NCBI GenBank assembly: GCA_018260755.1
Contig: JAGTWP010000050.1
Span: forward strand, 1-9,562
DNA: 9,562 bases
Origin: Candidatus Altarchaeum sp.
Lineage (GTDB): Archaea > Altiarchaeota > Altiarchaeia > Altiarchaeales > Altiarchaeaceae
Direction: 5' to 3'
The position numbers and the translations under genes are program-made. Of the stretch, positions 1,918-9,562 are shown piece by piece. The notes beneath the pieces are model-generated. The model had not been told where the DNA came from, searched no databases, and saw nothing but the letters and a program-made list of their open reading frames with translations. Every line of letters begins with the position of its first letter. Position 1 is the stretch's first letter.

Positions 1918-4206
1918 TTATAACCTCACTTCGTTCGGATATTTGCTCATTTCATTCGTAAATGATAGCAAATCTTCATTTTTGGCAATTCCCTTACAAC
2001 CTGTTGAGCATAATTTCTTAAGTAATTTCACAACCTCAAAATGATTATGTAGATTAAATCTTGCATAAGACTGGAACACTCCAACTTTGATTGTATATGC
2101 ATCCTTTGGAAGAATTTTAAATAAGTCCTCATCTGTCCAGTCATCACCTATTGCCAATACAAAATCATAATATCCATTCGTAAATTGCATTGCTGCACTG
2201 CCTTTATTTACACCTCCGTTCCTGAATTCAATCACTTTGTTTCCCTGCAAAACCTGAATATCTAAATTTGCCATTAAATTTATTATTTCATCCCTAATTT
2301 CCTTTGCCTTTTGCGATGCCAGTTCAGGATCGCTTTTTCTGTAATGCCACACTACTGAAAAATCCTTTTCTTCAATAAAAGAATAAGGAACTCTGTCTAC
2401 ATAATCCTGAAGTATGGAAAGTATTTTTGGTTTCCATTTTGTATCTAATTTTCTAATCAGTTTCCATTCACCATCCTTTTCTTTTATATATACACCGTGT
2501 TCTGCTACAAATCCAACATTAAAATTTCCAAACCATTCCTGAAGCGTTTTCCTGTCTCTGCCGCTTGTAATTATTACATAATTTTTGTCATCATTTGAAA
2601 ATTTCCTTAAAATTTCTAAAATTTCATCACCTGGAGTCGCATTTTCAGGACGGTCTGCAAAAGGAACTAAAGTTCCGTCGTAATCCAGAAATATAAGTCG
2701 TTTGTTTGCATTAATGTAATCCCTCATCATTATTCTTTCATTGCTCTTCTTCAACAATCTCATTTCAAGACCTTTCTGTTCTTCCTTCATAGATAACAAC
2801 TCTGAAATAAAATCATTGCCCCATTTAATTATATCGTACCTTCTCAATCTGTCCTGCATAATTTTATTGCGTCTAATCTGCTCTTCCTCAGGCATCTCCA
2901 ATGACTGCTTTAATGCGTATGCTATTTCTTCAAGGGAGTTTGGATTTATAATAATTGCCTCTCCAAGTTCTTTTGACGCTCCTGCCATCTCACTCAAAAT
3001 TAAAACGCCTTTTTCATCACTTCTTGTGGCAATATATTCCTTTGCGATTAAATTCATCCCGTCTCTTAAAGGAGTTATTAAAGCAACATTACTAATTGCA
3101 TAATAAGATGCAAGTATCTCAAAAGGAAGCGATGTGAACTGATAATTTATTGGAGTCCATTTAATGGTTCCAAATTTTCCGTTTATCTTCCCTATATATT
3201 CATCAATCTGTCTTTTCATCGTCTGATAATGCTCGACCCCGACACGGGAAGGAACCAAAACCAGAACAAGCACAACTTTATTATGCCATTGCGGATTTTT
3301 CTCTAAAAACAATTCATACCCTTGTAAACGATTTATTATGCCTTTTGTATAGTCCAGGCGGTCAATTGACAAAATAATTTTAAAATTTTTCAATGTTGTT
3401 TTAATTTTTCCAAAATTTTTCCGGACATTCATGTTGTCAATAGACCTGTTAAATTTATTAAAGTCAATGCCCATCGAAAATACATCGGCTTTAATAACTC
3501 TGTCGCTATAAATCTTTCCCATCTCATTATCATATCCGAGAACGCAAATAATTGACCTTAAGAAATGCTGAACATACTCATGCGTATGGAATCCTATGAG
3601 ATCCGATCCTAACATCCCTTCAAGTATGTCTATTTGCCATTTTCTTGGAAGAAGGCGAAATAATTCATAAGATGGAAAAGGAATATGAAGGAAAAAGCCA
3701 ATAGAAATGTTTTGTATTTTATCCCTCAAAATCTTTGGGAGAAGCATCAAATGATAGTCATGTATCCAGACAATATCATCTTCTCTTAGAATTTCCATTA
3801 ATGCGTTGCAAAAAATTTTATTAACATCATTATAAAAATTCCAGTATTCCTCCTTATACTTGACATAAGAAGAGAAGTAGTGGAATAACGGCCATAATGT
3901 GCTATTACAAAATCCGTTATAAAAATTTTCCATACTTTTTTCAGGCAGAAAAACGGGATGGTATTTAAATTTTTTAAGTTTATCTTTAACATATTCCTTT
4001 TCTTCGTCTCCTACTGTAATTCCGGGCCATCCAACCCACATATAATCACTAAATGCCTCATGTTTGCCCTCCAAATATGTCTTTAATCCAGAAACCAGAC
4101 CGCCGGGACTTTGCTGAAATTTAAATTTTTCTCCGTTCTTTTTTATTGCTATCGGCAAACGATTTGCAACAATAATCAATCTTCGCCTTTCTTTTCCTTC
4201 TTTCAT
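1918..4206 (-). CDS. Bifunctional trehalose-6-phosphate synthase/phosphatase (OtsA-OtsB fusion)
   Basis: The 762-residue protein should make trehalose from a nucleotide-glucose donor and glucose-6-phosphate, then remove the phosphate. Residues 8-475 are a GT20 synthase domain: VANRLPIA (13-20), SPGGLVSGL (33-41), HDYH (149-152), HIPFPSYELFRLLP (174-187), DRLDYTKGI (282-290) and LRDGMNLIAKEYIA (380-393). Residues 500-735 are a HAD phosphatase: DYDGT (Asp508, Asp510), ITSGR (Ser548), NKGSA (Lys668) and GDDWTDED (687-694). All catalytic motifs look intact in both halves. After the phosphatase comes a tail of about 25 residues with no recognised motif. The ATG at 4206 overlaps the stop of the upstream MscS gene in the sequence ATGA, so translation is probably coupled. 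In Thermoproteus tenax such a fusion is reported in an operon with a mechanosensitive channel, which supports an osmotic or stress role. Donor specificity cannot be told. Confidence 0.95.
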   Translation of the reverse strand: MKEGKERRRLIIVANRLPIAIKKNGEKFKFQQSPGGLVSGLKTYLEGKHEAFSDYMWVGWPGITVGDEEKEYVKDKLKKFKYHPVFLPEKSMENFYNGFCNSTLWPLFHYFSSYVKYKEEYWNFYNDVNKIFCNALMEILREDDIVWIHDYHLMLLPKILRDKIQNISIGFFLHIPFPSYELFRLLPRKWQIDILEGMLGSDLIGFHTHEYVQHFLRSIICVLGYDNEMGKIYSDRVIKADVFSMGIDFNKFNRSIDNMNVRKNFGKIKTTLKNFKIILSIDRLDYTKGIINRLQGYELFLEKNPQWHNKVVLVLVLVPSRVGVEHYQTMKRQIDEYIGKINGKFGTIKWTPINYQFTSLPFEILASYYAISNVALITPLRDGMNLIAKEYIATRSDEKGVLILSEMAGASKELGEAIIINPNSLEEIAYALKQSLEMPEEEQIRRNKIMQDRLRRYDIIKWGNDFISELLSMKEEQKGLEMRLLKKSNERIMMRDYINANKRLIFLDYDGTLVPFADRPENATPGDEILEILRKFSNDDKNYVIITSGRDRKTLQEWFGNFNVGFVAEHGVYIKEKDGEWKLIRKLDTKWKPKILSILQDYVDRVPYSFIEEKDFSVVWHYRKSDPELASQKAKEIRDEIINLMANLDIQVLQGNKVIEFRNGGVNKGSAAMQFTNGYYDFVLAIGDDWTDEDLFKILPKDAYTIKVGVFQSYARFNLHNHFEVVKLLKKLCSTGCKGIAKNEDLLSFTNEMSKYPNEVRL

Positions 4207-5261
4207 TGTTTTGCATTTTTAAAGTATATATTCCTGACAGGAAATGAAATTTCTATTCCTTCTTTATTGTATCTTGTCATTAATTTTTTAATGAATTCGT
4301 GAACAACTAAATATTGGTCAACAAATTTCTCAACCCTTAAAATTATACTGAAATTTATATTTGAGTTACCGAAGTTATTATATCTGATAAAAGGTTCAAA
4401 ATTTTTAACCGCACCTGGAATATTTTGCTGTATTTCCTTTGCCACTTCAATTGTTATTTTTTCAACTCTTTCTAAATCAGAATTGTAAGAGACGCCGCAA
4501 GGCACAACAACCGCCATTTCCTGTTCAGGTGTATAATAGTTTATTATTATGCTTTGCGCCAGTTTTGAATTTGGAATTATGATAATATTATTTTCCAATG
4601 TCTTTATTTTTGTAGTTCTCCAGCCAATATCTTTAACATAACCTTTCATTCCATTCTCAAGTTCAACATAATCGTCAAATTTTATCGGCTTATCTGCAAT
4701 AAGGTGGATTCCTGCAAATAAATTTGATAAAGTATCCTGTAACGCTAAAGCAACTGCTAATCCGACGATTCCCAAACTTGCTAAAAGAGGAGTGATTTCA
4801 ATATTAAAGACCCCTTGTAAGATTAGCATTAATGCAATCGCATATATGAATCCATAAATAATTTTTCTGAGCAGAGGCATAAATGCTTTATCAACATTTC
4901 CATTTGTGTTTAAAGAGAATTCACCGTCATACCACCTAATAACAGCATCCAATATTCTCGTAACAAAAAAAGTTCCGAGCAAAATATATATAGATGTAAA
5001 AATTTTGTCAATTACATACTGATAATTTGCAAGTAGTTCTATTCTTAACAGTCCGAGATACAATCCGATAAAAAATATGATAAGAATTATGGGTGTTTTT
5101 GCTGTCTTTAAAATTTCATCATCAAGTGTTGTCCTCGTTCTTTTTACAATTTTGGTAAAAATTTTTTCAAGTATAAAAAAGACAAGATACGCAATAAATA
5201 GAAAAATTCCTGTTATTATTAAAGCAATTACTATGTCCATATAATTTTCAATACCAAACAT
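4203..5261 (-). CDS. mscS: MscS-family small-conductance mechanosensitive channel
   Basis: The 352-residue membrane protein should open under membrane tension to release small solutes after hypo-osmotic shock. Hydrophobic helices lie at about 9-31, 57-73, 83-104, 131-150 and 156-175. The last is the Gly/Ala-rich pore helix (LLASLGIVGLAVALALQD, 159-176). The cytoplasmic beta domain carries the family signature DKPIKFDDYVEL (190-201), GWRTTKIKTLENN (213-225) and IPNSKL (229-234). The C-terminus has the typical GIEISFPVRNIYF (335-347). It resembles archaeal MscMJ-type channels with two extra N-terminal helices. The ATG at 5261 gives the longest protein. Met8 (5240) is an alternative and sits better relative to a TATA-like run at 5273-5285. 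The stop overlaps the start of the trehalose gene by 4 nt. The upstream side abuts a decayed mobile element, whose left end lies 47 nt from the start. Confidence 0.93.
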   Translation of the reverse strand: MFGIENYMDIVIALIITGIFLFIAYLVFFILEKIFTKIVKRTRTTLDDEILKTAKTPIILIIFFIGLYLGLLRIELLANYQYVIDKIFTSIYILLGTFFVTRILDAVIRWYDGEFSLNTNGNVDKAFMPLLRKIIYGFIYAIALMLILQGVFNIEITPLLASLGIVGLAVALALQDTLSNLFAGIHLIADKPIKFDDYVELENGMKGYVKDIGWRTTKIKTLENNIIIIPNSKLAQSIIINYYTPEQEMAVVVPCGVSYNSDLERVEKITIEVAKEIQQNIPGAVKNFEPFIRYNNFGNSNINFSIILRVEKFVDQYLVVHEFIKKLMTRYNKEGIEISFPVRNIYFKNAKQ

Positions 5262-7251: not shown

Positions 7252-7356
7252 GTAACTATTCAGCCACCCAAAAAATTACGAGTAAATTTTTTGATTTTTT
7301 TGTATTTTTTGAAATTTTCGTAGGTAAATTTTTGTACCCTCTGAATAGTTACTTAC
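7252..7356. mobile_element. Short copy of the hairpin-rich MITE (105 bp)
   Basis: The left end GTAACTATTCAG (7252-7263) is repeated in inverse as CTGAATAGTTAC (7341-7352). Identical 8-bp flanks ATTTTTTC (7244-7251 and 7357-7364) are seen if the right end is taken 4 nt further out, at 7356. It matches the outer parts of the 5565-5808 copy almost base for base, including the shared CCACCCAAAAAATTACG and TTTTTGTACCCTCTGAATAG stretches. It lacks the extra hairpin blocks. It retains one small hairpin around 7269-7291. It has no coding capacity and lies upstream of the permease. Confidence 0.7.
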
Positions 7357-7364
7357 ATTTTTTC

Positions 7365-7653
7365 TAAATATTATTTTTATTTTTTACCATTTTTATTTTT
7401 ATTTTTATTTTAGGTAGTGCTAAGCAAGTAATGATAAAATTTAATATTTAAACCAAAATTCAATAATGGGAAAGGTTAAAATACATAAAATTGTTACAAA
7501 ACATCATTACATCTTTATCACTACTATATTATGTACTTGCTCTCCGCACTCATCAGGATTAAATGAAACGAATGAAGCGAAAAATTTATTGTATTGCAAT
7601 TTCCATCAAATTGCTTTCTTTTTATTTAAAATTTTGATGAAAATACAAATTAT
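7365..7653. other. AT-rich gap without a supported gene
   Basis: The stretch starts with a T-rich low-complexity run of ATTTTT units (about 7369-7412). An open frame starts at 7466 on the plus strand with a TATA-like run 15-25 nt before it. Its protein has unusual composition and runs on antisense to the ferredoxin, so I do not call it. The first 60 codons could be a host gene cut by the GC-rich block, but nothing in them is recognisable. The only other structure is the hairpin at 7596-7614. Confidence 0.5.
7596..7614 (-). terminator. Hairpin downstream of the tes-ferredoxin pair, possible terminator
   Basis: A perfect 7-bp stem (GCAATTT with AAATTGC) closes a 5-nt loop, 40 nt beyond the ferredoxin stop. 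Minus-strand transcripts would then read a mixed A/T stretch with only a five-T run. Archaeal termination relies mainly on U-tracts, so this is weak. On the plus strand the hairpin is followed by TTTCTTTTTATTT, which would suit a plus-strand terminator better, but no convincing plus-strand gene precedes it. Confidence 0.25.
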
Positions 7654-7794
7654 TTACGCGCAGATTCTGCATTCGATGCAGAGTTTCGAATCGATTTTCA
7701 ATCCGGCGGCATTCATTCGCATCGCGTTCTTCGGGCACACGCCGACGCATCCGCCGCAGAGAAGGCATTTGTTTCTATCGATGTTTGGTATCAT
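7654..7794 (-). pseudogene. Truncated 2[4Fe-4S] ferredoxin behind tes
   Basis: The 46-residue frame starts MIPNIDRNKC. It carries a complete first motif, Cys10-x2-Cys13-x2-Cys16-x3-Cys20-Pro. The second motif is incomplete: Cys39-x2-Cys42-x2-Cys45-Ala-stop, with the final x3-Cys-Pro missing. In clostridial-type ferredoxins one cluster is held by the first three cysteines plus the last one. Here that cluster would lose a ligand, while Cys20/39/42/45 could still hold the other. The stop at 7654-7656 coincides with the switch from GC-rich to AT-rich DNA, which points to physical truncation rather than a natural end. The start lies 11 nt after the tes stop with GGTAGG directly before the ATG, so the two were one operon. 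This ferredoxin type often sits beside geranylgeranyl reductase in archaea. A product with one working cluster cannot be excluded. Confidence 0.75.
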
Positions 7795-9476
7795 CCTACC
7801 ATTTGTTATCTGCTTTTGATTGTTTTGCACGGCTGCCGGCGCCTTTTTTCTGCAGTTCCCACTTCCCCCGCAGAGTTCGCCTCCTTAAAATCCTTCAGCG
7901 GAATGCCGAATCTCCGCTCAATTTCGGTGCGGTATGTCGGCCCGCCGTTGTATGCGCAGAACGGGATGAGGCGCCCGTCCGGCGTAACCTGGTGTATTCC
8001 GCATCGCTTCACTCTTTCGATGTCGTAGTTGTATGAATCCTGGAAATGCATGACGCCGACAAGCAGGGAATTCCATGAGAACTTTATCAGGGCTTGGTAG
8101 TCGTTAAACAGCACGGAACGAATCATCGCCTTTACATCCAATCCAGCGGGCCCCTTCTTCTGGTCTATGTGGCGCAGCACCTTTCCAGAGTTGAGCAGCA
8201 GGCGCATTCTGGCGAAGCGGGAGCCGCGTATTCTCGCCGCAAGTTGCATCACGTCGGACATAAATCCTTCTACGTCAACGAATTGAGTTATCGGGATTAT
8301 CTTTGGATTATTGTCCCTGCCGCCGCCAATATGTGCGCCGCCTGCATCGCTGGCGCCTTTCTGGCTTTTCTCCACGAAAATGTAGGTCGCCATTCCGCAG
8401 TGCGGGTGCGTCGTAAAAGTAATCTGCGGCTTTCCGGCAACGGACGCGACAAGTTCGGAGATGGGAGCAACCACAGGAACCGGATAGAAGTCGCTCCGCT
8501 TGATTACGCCGTTGGTGTGCTTTTCGATTGCGGCGCACACATCAGGTATGGTGAAGCGCTGGCGCTCCCTTTCTTTCATTGAAATGCGTCCCGTGAAGGC
8601 TATGGGCTGGTAGTTTATCCCGCGCACCACGTCGCTGTTCTGGATTGCAAAATCGAATATCGCGCCTATCTGGTTGTCGTTCACCGTCTTAACTATCGTC
8701 GGGACTAGCACGGTGCTGAGCGTGGACTTCCTGCAATTCTCTATCGCTTTTTTCTTGACAGCCAGCAGGCGCCTGCCGCGCAACTTCATATATACTTCAT
8801 CATCCAGACCGTCGAACTGCAGGTACGCTGTATTCAGTCCGGTGTTTACCATTTTCTGCACGAACGCCGGATCCTCCGCCATTTTCAGTCCGTTCGTCGC
8901 TACCTGTATATGGCGGAATCCCATCTTCGACGCGGTTTTGAGTATCTCAAGAAAATCGGGGCGCACAGTCGGCTCCCCGCCCGAAAACTGGACGGCAGCA
9001 GCAGGCACCGGGCGGTTCCCGCGCAGGACGCGCATCATTCCCACTACTGTTTTGAAGTCCGGTTCGTAAACATATCCGGAGGCGTTTGCGTTGGCGAAGC
9101 ATATCGGGCAGCGCAGGTTGCAGCGGTTCGTCAAATCGATGTTTGCAAGAAGGGTGTGGGTCAGGTGTTCGTCGCAAAGCCCGCAGTCGAAAGGGCACCC
9201 GTCCGTCACAGGCATCCGCGGATTTGAAACTCCTTGTCCGTCGTATGCGAACTTCTCCGCCTTGAGATACATCGCGGCGTCCGACCAGTAAACGTCTGAA
9301 AAGCGTCCGTGCTCCGGGCATTCTTTCTCAATGAGCGCCTTGCCATCGCGCTCGAAAACGCGCGCCTGAACAATCTTTCCGCATTCCGGGCAGAGCGACT
9401 GCGTTTCCTTGGGAAGCCCTTTCATGATTGTAGAATGTTGATTGCGGATTGCAGAATTCCGGCTTCGCACTTTCGA
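7657..9476. other. GC-rich block carrying tes and the ferredoxin; probable transferred segment or assembly join
   Basis: Base composition changes sharply at both ends: near 7656/7657 inside the ferredoxin frame, and near 9476 at the beginning of the AT-rich tandem repeat. Within the block G and C make up more than half of the bases; the rest of the window is strongly AT-rich. Codon choice follows the same split, with GC-ending codons such as CGC, GGC and CTG in tes and A/T-ending codons in all other genes. No inverted repeats or target duplication were found exactly at the two edges. Lateral transfer with later truncation and a chimeric contig both explain this. Confidence 0.7.
7806..9425 (-). 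CDS. tes: Radical SAM tetraether lipid synthase (Tes)
   Basis: The 539-residue enzyme resembles Methanocaldococcus MJ0619, the synthase that joins the phytanyl chain ends of archaeal diether lipids to form membrane-spanning tetraethers. Motifs are CPEC (Cys12, Cys15) with ECPEHG (Cys36), a likely rubredoxin-like iron site; CPFDCGLC (Cys77, 81, 84), a likely auxiliary cluster; and the radical SAM core CNLRCPIC (Cys102, 106, 109) followed by FSGGEPTVRPD (147-157). HPHC (Cys343) and the family C-terminal signature CGIHQVTPDGRLIPFCAYN (Cys475, Cys490) follow. The MJ0619 structure has three 4Fe-4S clusters and one mononuclear iron, and all its cysteine groups seem present. I chose ATG 9425 (MKGLPKETQSLCPEC) because the family starts just before CPEC. 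ATG 9485 would add 20 Ser/Arg/Asn-rich residues. The gene is much richer in GC than the other genes here and precedes a truncated ferredoxin by 11 nt. Confidence 0.9.
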   Translation of the reverse strand: MKGLPKETQSLCPECGKIVQARVFERDGKALIEKECPEHGRFSDVYWSDAAMYLKAEKFAYDGQGVSNPRMPVTDGCPFDCGLCDEHLTHTLLANIDLTNRCNLRCPICFANANASGYVYEPDFKTVVGMMRVLRGNRPVPAAAVQFSGGEPTVRPDFLEILKTASKMGFRHIQVATNGLKMAEDPAFVQKMVNTGLNTAYLQFDGLDDEVYMKLRGRRLLAVKKKAIENCRKSTLSTVLVPTIVKTVNDNQIGAIFDFAIQNSDVVRGINYQPIAFTGRISMKERERQRFTIPDVCAAIEKHTNGVIKRSDFYPVPVVAPISELVASVAGKPQITFTTHPHCGMATYIFVEKSQKGASDAGGAHIGGGRDNNPKIIPITQFVDVEGFMSDVMQLAARIRGSRFARMRLLLNSGKVLRHIDQKKGPAGLDVKAMIRSVLFNDYQALIKFSWNSLLVGVMHFQDSYNYDIERVKRCGIHQVTPDGRLIPFCAYNGGPTYRTEIERRFGIPLKDFKEANSAGEVGTAEKRRRQPCKTIKSR

Positions 9477-9552
9477 TTGGCTCATATTTCTTAAAGAGTG
9501 ATTAATTATATTTGTTGGCTCATATTTCTTAAAGAGTGATTAATTATATTTG
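9477..9552 (-). promoter_or_regulatory. 38-bp tandem duplication with TATA-like boxes upstream of tes
   Basis: Two identical 38-bp units lie at 9477-9514 and 9515-9552. On the minus strand each contains AAATATAATTAAT followed by ATGAGCCAA. The proximal TATA-like box sits about 22 nt before the ATG at 9485 and about 80 nt before the ATG at 9425. The distal copy's ATG (9523) opens only MSQQI and a stop. The duplication thus doubles a promoter and an upstream start. Its plus strand together with the following bases to 9562 resembles 5403-5429 inside the decayed IS, so the window edge may be entering another copy of that element. Confidence 0.5.
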
Positions 9553-9562
9553 TTATAAATTA

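Follow-up and report, generated by a model that had tools for sequence, protein, structure and literature searches.

A tetraether lipid synthase gene of probable Thermoplasmatota origin, next to a broken ferredoxin gene and between host repeats, in a Candidatus Altiarchaeum genome

Gene content and composition of the locus

The window (the whole stretch of DNA analyzed, 9,562 bp) is contig C6 of a Ca. Altiarchaeum metagenome-assembled genome (MAG) that comprises 78 contigs, totals 1.32 Mb, and is 85% complete. Toward its right end lie a gene for tetraether lipid synthase (Tes), part of a ferredoxin gene, and the block of unusual base composition that holds both:

7806 to 9425, minus strand: tes, tetraether lipid synthase, 539 aa from the ATG at 9425 (assigned by NF045702, PDB 7tol_A, and its cysteines)
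7654 to 7794, minus strand: truncated 2x[4Fe-4S] ferredoxin, 46 aa, ending in CIECRICA and a stop (assigned by alignment with native ferredoxins)
7657 to 9476, no strand: GC-rich block, probably foreign, about 1.82 kb (delimited by GC, GC3, and a donor-versus-host Markov score)

Tes determines whether membrane-spanning lipids can build the membrane, and GDGTs serve as biomarkers. The GC content of the block in 500-bp windows is 0.53 to 0.56, against a mean of 0.320 (SD 0.047) over 4,296 windows of the MAG, and the block supplies the six highest-GC windows of all those sampled, equaling or exceeding the rRNA operon. Codon usage follows suit, with a GC3 of 0.67 for tes plus the ferredoxin open reading frame versus 0.24 to 0.36 for the five other genes of the contig. 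The donor-versus-host Markov score also places the block at the top of the sampled genome, where only two non-rRNA blocks clearly stand out, namely this one and a fragment on contig C64 that is described below. The block is unlike its host in composition, as is looked for in recent horizontal gene transfer. A preliminary description of this DNA had proposed a GC-rich block with its own base composition and codon use, which the windowed GC and GC3 profiles bear out. Its coordinates were also correct, as was the 11-nt gap that it gave between tes (stop codon at 7806 to 7808) and the ferredoxin gene (7794 to 7654).

Elsewhere on the contig, a 45-bp tandem repeat (positions 1 to 201) encodes (EKQSKTNKTEKAAKP)n on the N-terminal side of a TFE-alpha-like protein, and the left end of the contig falls inside this repeat. 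In addition, a gene for a bifunctional trehalose-6-phosphate synthase/phosphatase (1918 to 4206) overlaps an MscS-type channel gene (4203 to 5261), and the two are possibly an osmotic-stress pair.

An intact synthase gene beside a broken ferredoxin gene

The Tes protein scores 665.8 bits against the NCBIfam model NF045702, for which the curated equivalog cut-off is 450, and it is a full-length homolog of the enzyme of solved structure (PDB 7tol_A, E 8e-155). All cysteines that are near-invariant among 99 Tes sequences are retained (C102/C106/C109, C12, C15, C36, C343, C475, and C490), and the protein also carries C77/C81/C84. The radical SAM CxxxCxxC motif and the auxiliary cysteines that characterize the known Tes/GDGT-MAS synthase (PDB 7tol and 7tom; NF045702) are common to both proteins over a full-length match. 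The copy in the window differs from that known enzyme in being a Thermoplasmatota-type sequence, with a predicted activity, within an Altiarchaeota genome. An in-frame ATG at 9485, from which a longer reading frame had been called, falls inside the flanking host repeat, and homologs favor 9425 as the start. The gene is an intact, full-length open frame, and its product is probably active.

The ferredoxin gene is truncated, which the preliminary description did not recognize. Its last ~15 residues are missing, and with them the C-terminal tail and the fourth and final cysteine of motif two. It therefore has seven of the eight cluster cysteines of the two CxxCxxCxxxC motifs that define a 2x[4Fe-4S] ferredoxin, and its TAA stop codon (7654 to 7656) lies just beyond the GC-rich side of the left junction of the block. 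Two-cluster ferredoxins use the fourth cysteine of their second motif for the first cluster, and for this reason a normal pair of [4Fe-4S] clusters is not expected in the protein. According to the alignment, the ferredoxins encoded behind tes in relatives go on to include CP and a short tail. The nearest relative is STD1_48 (labeled Candidatus Thermoplasmatota), of which one contig opens with the ferredoxin end CIECGICLKYCPTGAILPEKRVK and proceeds directly into a geranylgeranyl reductase-type frame. This complete tail and the reductase are on a different contig from tes, and the tes contig ends inside tes; we infer that the one continues the other.

The gene for geranylgeranyl reductase, an enzyme of lipid saturation, is gone from the block in the window. 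Because the ferredoxin is broken and the reductase is missing, the block represents a torn operon end, not a functional cassette of two genes. The earlier proposal of a functional tes-ferredoxin cassette is therefore not supported, given that the ferredoxin is without its last cluster cysteine and tail. Moreover, some 40 native loci have the ferredoxin gene between tes and a geranylgeranyl reductase gene that was not carried along here. The window shares with the Thermoplasmatota tes-ferredoxin-geranylgeranyl reductase cluster the first two genes, their order, and their 11-nt spacing, but its ferredoxin stops before the eighth cysteine and the reductase is missing. Similar neighbors are present in Methanosarcina acetivorans (MA_1486-MA_1485-MA_1484), where the ferredoxin beside tes was reported to be required by the geranylgeranyl reductase (PMC8941075). 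Given that report, the ferredoxin may serve mainly the reductase as its partner, and not Tes.

Phylogeny and gene order point to Thermoplasmatota

The window Tes and that of STD1_48 form a pair with 76 to 78% identity and 100/100 support, within a clade that is mainly Thermoplasmatota and also includes some bacterial sequences and one Pacearchaeota-labeled Tes. A tree forced to place the window Tes within the main Altiarchaeota clade is worse by 173 log units and is rejected (AU p=7e-75 under the model used). The Tes proteins of other families in the host class occupy two separate positions in the tree, both distant from the window protein. One tes locus from the host class (G018) is identical to the tes locus of 'Candidatus Altiarchaeales archaeon' B22_G2, and on this ground the host is assigned to Altiarchaeota. 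The Tes tree thus conflicts with host relationships, another hallmark of recent horizontal gene transfer, and the phylogeny that the preliminary description had called for groups this copy with Thermoplasmatota. As a separate observation, the Pacearchaeota-labeled and bacterial MAGs whose Tes sequences fall within the mainly Thermoplasmatota clade are represented by five loci (L101, L061, L080, L082, and L106).

Gene order carries the same signature. Among Thermoplasmatota-labeled loci with enough sequence, a ferredoxin gene follows tes in 28 of 31, and it does so in 12 further loci, two labeled only Euryarchaeota and ten lacking a phylum label, mostly from relatives of STD1_48. No ferredoxin gene was seen behind tes outside these loci, the host class included. 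A reductase-like frame comes after the ferredoxin gene in at least 37 of 40 loci, and the three such frames that were checked all score above the cut-off of TIGR02032, the family model for geranylgeranyl reductase. In these sequences, tes-ferredoxin-geranylgeranyl reductase is the usual gene order of Thermoplasmatota. Tree, gene order, and composition together support the earlier suggestion that tes was transferred from a distant archaeal lineage of higher GC content.

Of the four genomes of the genus compared, only the MAG that includes the window has tes; no full-length Tes was found in the three congeners (65 to 87% complete), and such absence from close relatives is likewise expected of a recent transfer. 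The search for a second, native tes, which the preliminary description had recommended, found none in the same 85%-complete MAG, where the sole candidate was a weak radical SAM match on contig C30. A virus-borne tes was considered and rejected, as no relative was found among the proteins encoded by viral contigs and the flanking repeat is absent there too. A plasmid-borne tes was likewise rejected, as plasmids yielded only matches with less than 60% identity.

Host repeats flank the block

The edges of the block and the repeats beside them are as follows:

7252 to 7352, no strand: dispersed host repeat with terminal inverted repeat GTAACTATTCAG (repeat copies in the MAG)
7414 to 7524, no strand: dispersed host repeat with ends GTAGTG / CACTAC (copies in many contigs, with the same end base)
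7656 to 7657, no strand: left junction, inside the ferredoxin gene, where AT-rich, host-like DNA starts
9479 to 9514, no strand: 36-bp end fragment of a 192-bp MITE-like host repeat, the fragment end being the right edge of the block
9517 to 9562, no strand: beginning of a further copy of this 192-bp repeat, inside which the contig ends

In 50-bp steps, the GC content drops from about 0.6 to 0.2 at the left junction, and likeness to the STD1_48 ferredoxin ends there, at the last common TGC codon. The nearer of the two repeats on this side (7414 to 7524) stands 132 bp to the left of the junction. On the right, the copy at 9517 to 9562 is 100% identical to copies in contigs C71 and C30, which hold the two identical full copies of the 192-bp repeat (L207 and L158) alongside many partial ones elsewhere. 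This element is short, non-coding, and dispersed, and it has terminal inverted repeats (GGCTCATATTTCTTAAAGAG ... CTCTCTTAAAAATATGAGCC; inverted ends GGCTCATATTT), as is typical of a MITE. No clear direct repeat indicative of a target-site duplication is evident at the flanks shown, and no matching transposase was identified. The repeat is weak or absent in two of the three congeners. Four other contigs (C4, C26, C60, and C68) also break within it.

Host repeats therefore flank both sides of the block, and the contig holds no N, compared with 40 N runs in the scaffolds of the MAG, which rules out a scaffold join. A search of contig-end overlaps for a neighbor of this contig returned none. Such overlaps reach up to 52 bases in the MAG, and one contig stops exactly 55 bases into the repeat; an assembler working with k=55 would fit these two facts. 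The Geyser Andernach assembly was made with metaSPAdes (PMC8755723). Bridging the right edge by synteny was attempted and abandoned: in two congeners tctA adjoins a DHPS-like gene, whereas in the host MAG that DHPS-like gene lies mid-contig on C71. The literature on tes with ferredoxin, on tes transfer, and on insertion sequences of Altiarchaeota offered little further.

The second foreign fragment (C64:9024-10149, L192) lies in mid-contig and is 91% identical to a genome of the same class as the host (G012), whose GC content is 0.50. Encoded there are the tail of RNase HII, a rhomboid protein whose gene is frameshifted in C64, and an intact adenosine-specific kinase, of which the host retains its own diverged version on C41. 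On one side the fragment stops exactly where a repeated host sequence ends, and its other edge is ragged. The block in the window has the same asymmetry, which suggests capture by recombination with one end anchored in a repeat and the other joined illegitimately. The fragment backs real uptake of DNA and hints at this mode of capture, although two cases do not establish a mechanism.

Weighing the alternatives

Composition, the Tes tree, the gene-order signature, the truncation, and the host repeats on both sides indicate that the block is quite probably a fragment of a Thermoplasmatota chromosome, acquired horizontally and recently integrated into this Altiarchaeota species. That tes is instead native, vertically inherited, and merely odd in composition has next to no likelihood. 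The gene does exist in other families of the host class, but their Tes proteins lie elsewhere in the tree and have no ferredoxin gene behind them, and the three congeners show no tes. A more serious concern, though still an unlikely one, is an assembly chimera in which an Altiarchaeota contig end and a piece of a co-occurring Thermoplasmatota genome were fused at 7657, within the ferredoxin gene. In favor of this reading, the sequence comes from a metagenome assembly, the block occupies a contig end, and a gene is interrupted at the left junction; moreover, a 20-bp host match in C68 reaches exactly to that junction, which a short-k misjoin or chance could explain. Against this, the right edge runs into a repeat of the host genome that is identical to copies elsewhere in the MAG, and because of this second edge a chimera would need two joins or a shared repeat. 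The left join also has neither N nor a long repeat, and the fragment on C64 is flanked by host DNA on both sides. If the MAG represents the Geyser Andernach population, the water there is reported to contain no other detected archaeon (PMC13003381). A real, recent integration is thus favored over a chimera.

Even a real insertion could carry tes as a silent or decaying passenger that leaves the lipids unaffected, and we give this reading perhaps one chance among several. The codon use of tes is donor-like rather than adapted, the ferredoxin is broken and the reductase lost, a repeat sits just upstream of tes, and the captured rhomboid gene on C64 has suffered a frameshift. Yet Tes retains a full-length open frame and its cluster cysteines. 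In addition, provided that the population is the same, iGDGT-0 is reported from water with Ca. Altiarchaeum as its sole detected archaeon (PMC13003381).

If the integration is real, recombination anchored in the host repeat at one end and illegitimate joining at the other may be the mode of capture. The piece that arrived, or that survived, starts just before tes and stops within the ferredoxin gene. Tes would then couple the phytanyl chains of two archaeols to yield GTGT and GDGT-0. Because the neighboring ferredoxin is a broken remnant, the enzyme would need other ferredoxins of the host as its electron source. Physical integration in living cells, the activity of Tes, its electron source, and the mode of capture are our reading of the sequence.

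Implications for membrane lipids in the genus

Groninga and colleagues describe one tes, clustering with Euryarchaeota, in the Geyser Andernach Ca. Altiarchaeum MAG GCA_018260755.1 (PMC13003381). The same source gives iGDGT-0 as detected at that site, with Altiarchaeum the sole archaeon found (PMC13003381; 2026), and states that GDGTs were not reported in earlier work on another Ca. Altiarchaeum population (PMC13003381). Both that gene and ours are the single tes of an Altiarchaeota genome and group with Euryarchaeota rather than with the Alti-2 tes (PMC13003381). The accessible text of that report has no discussion of transfer, gene neighbors, or a composition break for the Ca. Altiarchaeum tes (PMC13003381). 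Since the MAG analyzed here is the only one of the four genomes of the genus with tes, it may be the Geyser Andernach MAG. If the two represent the same population, then tes was already known there, and the torn-operon anatomy and the likely donor are what the present analysis adds.

It is possible, if short of probable, that tetraether synthesis in this Altiarchaeum population was recently acquired through one foreign gene, torn from a lipid operon and caught beside a host repeat, which changed a lineage with archaeols only into one that makes tetraethers, in a genus that repeatedly captures 1 to 2 kb of foreign DNA. If true, the transfer would account for the clustering of the published Alti-1 tes with Euryarchaeota. 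A population with tes and congeners without it would provide a natural gain-of-function comparison. Moreover, one recent transfer into a lineage otherwise reported as archaeol-dominated would decouple lipid type from phylogeny within a single genus.
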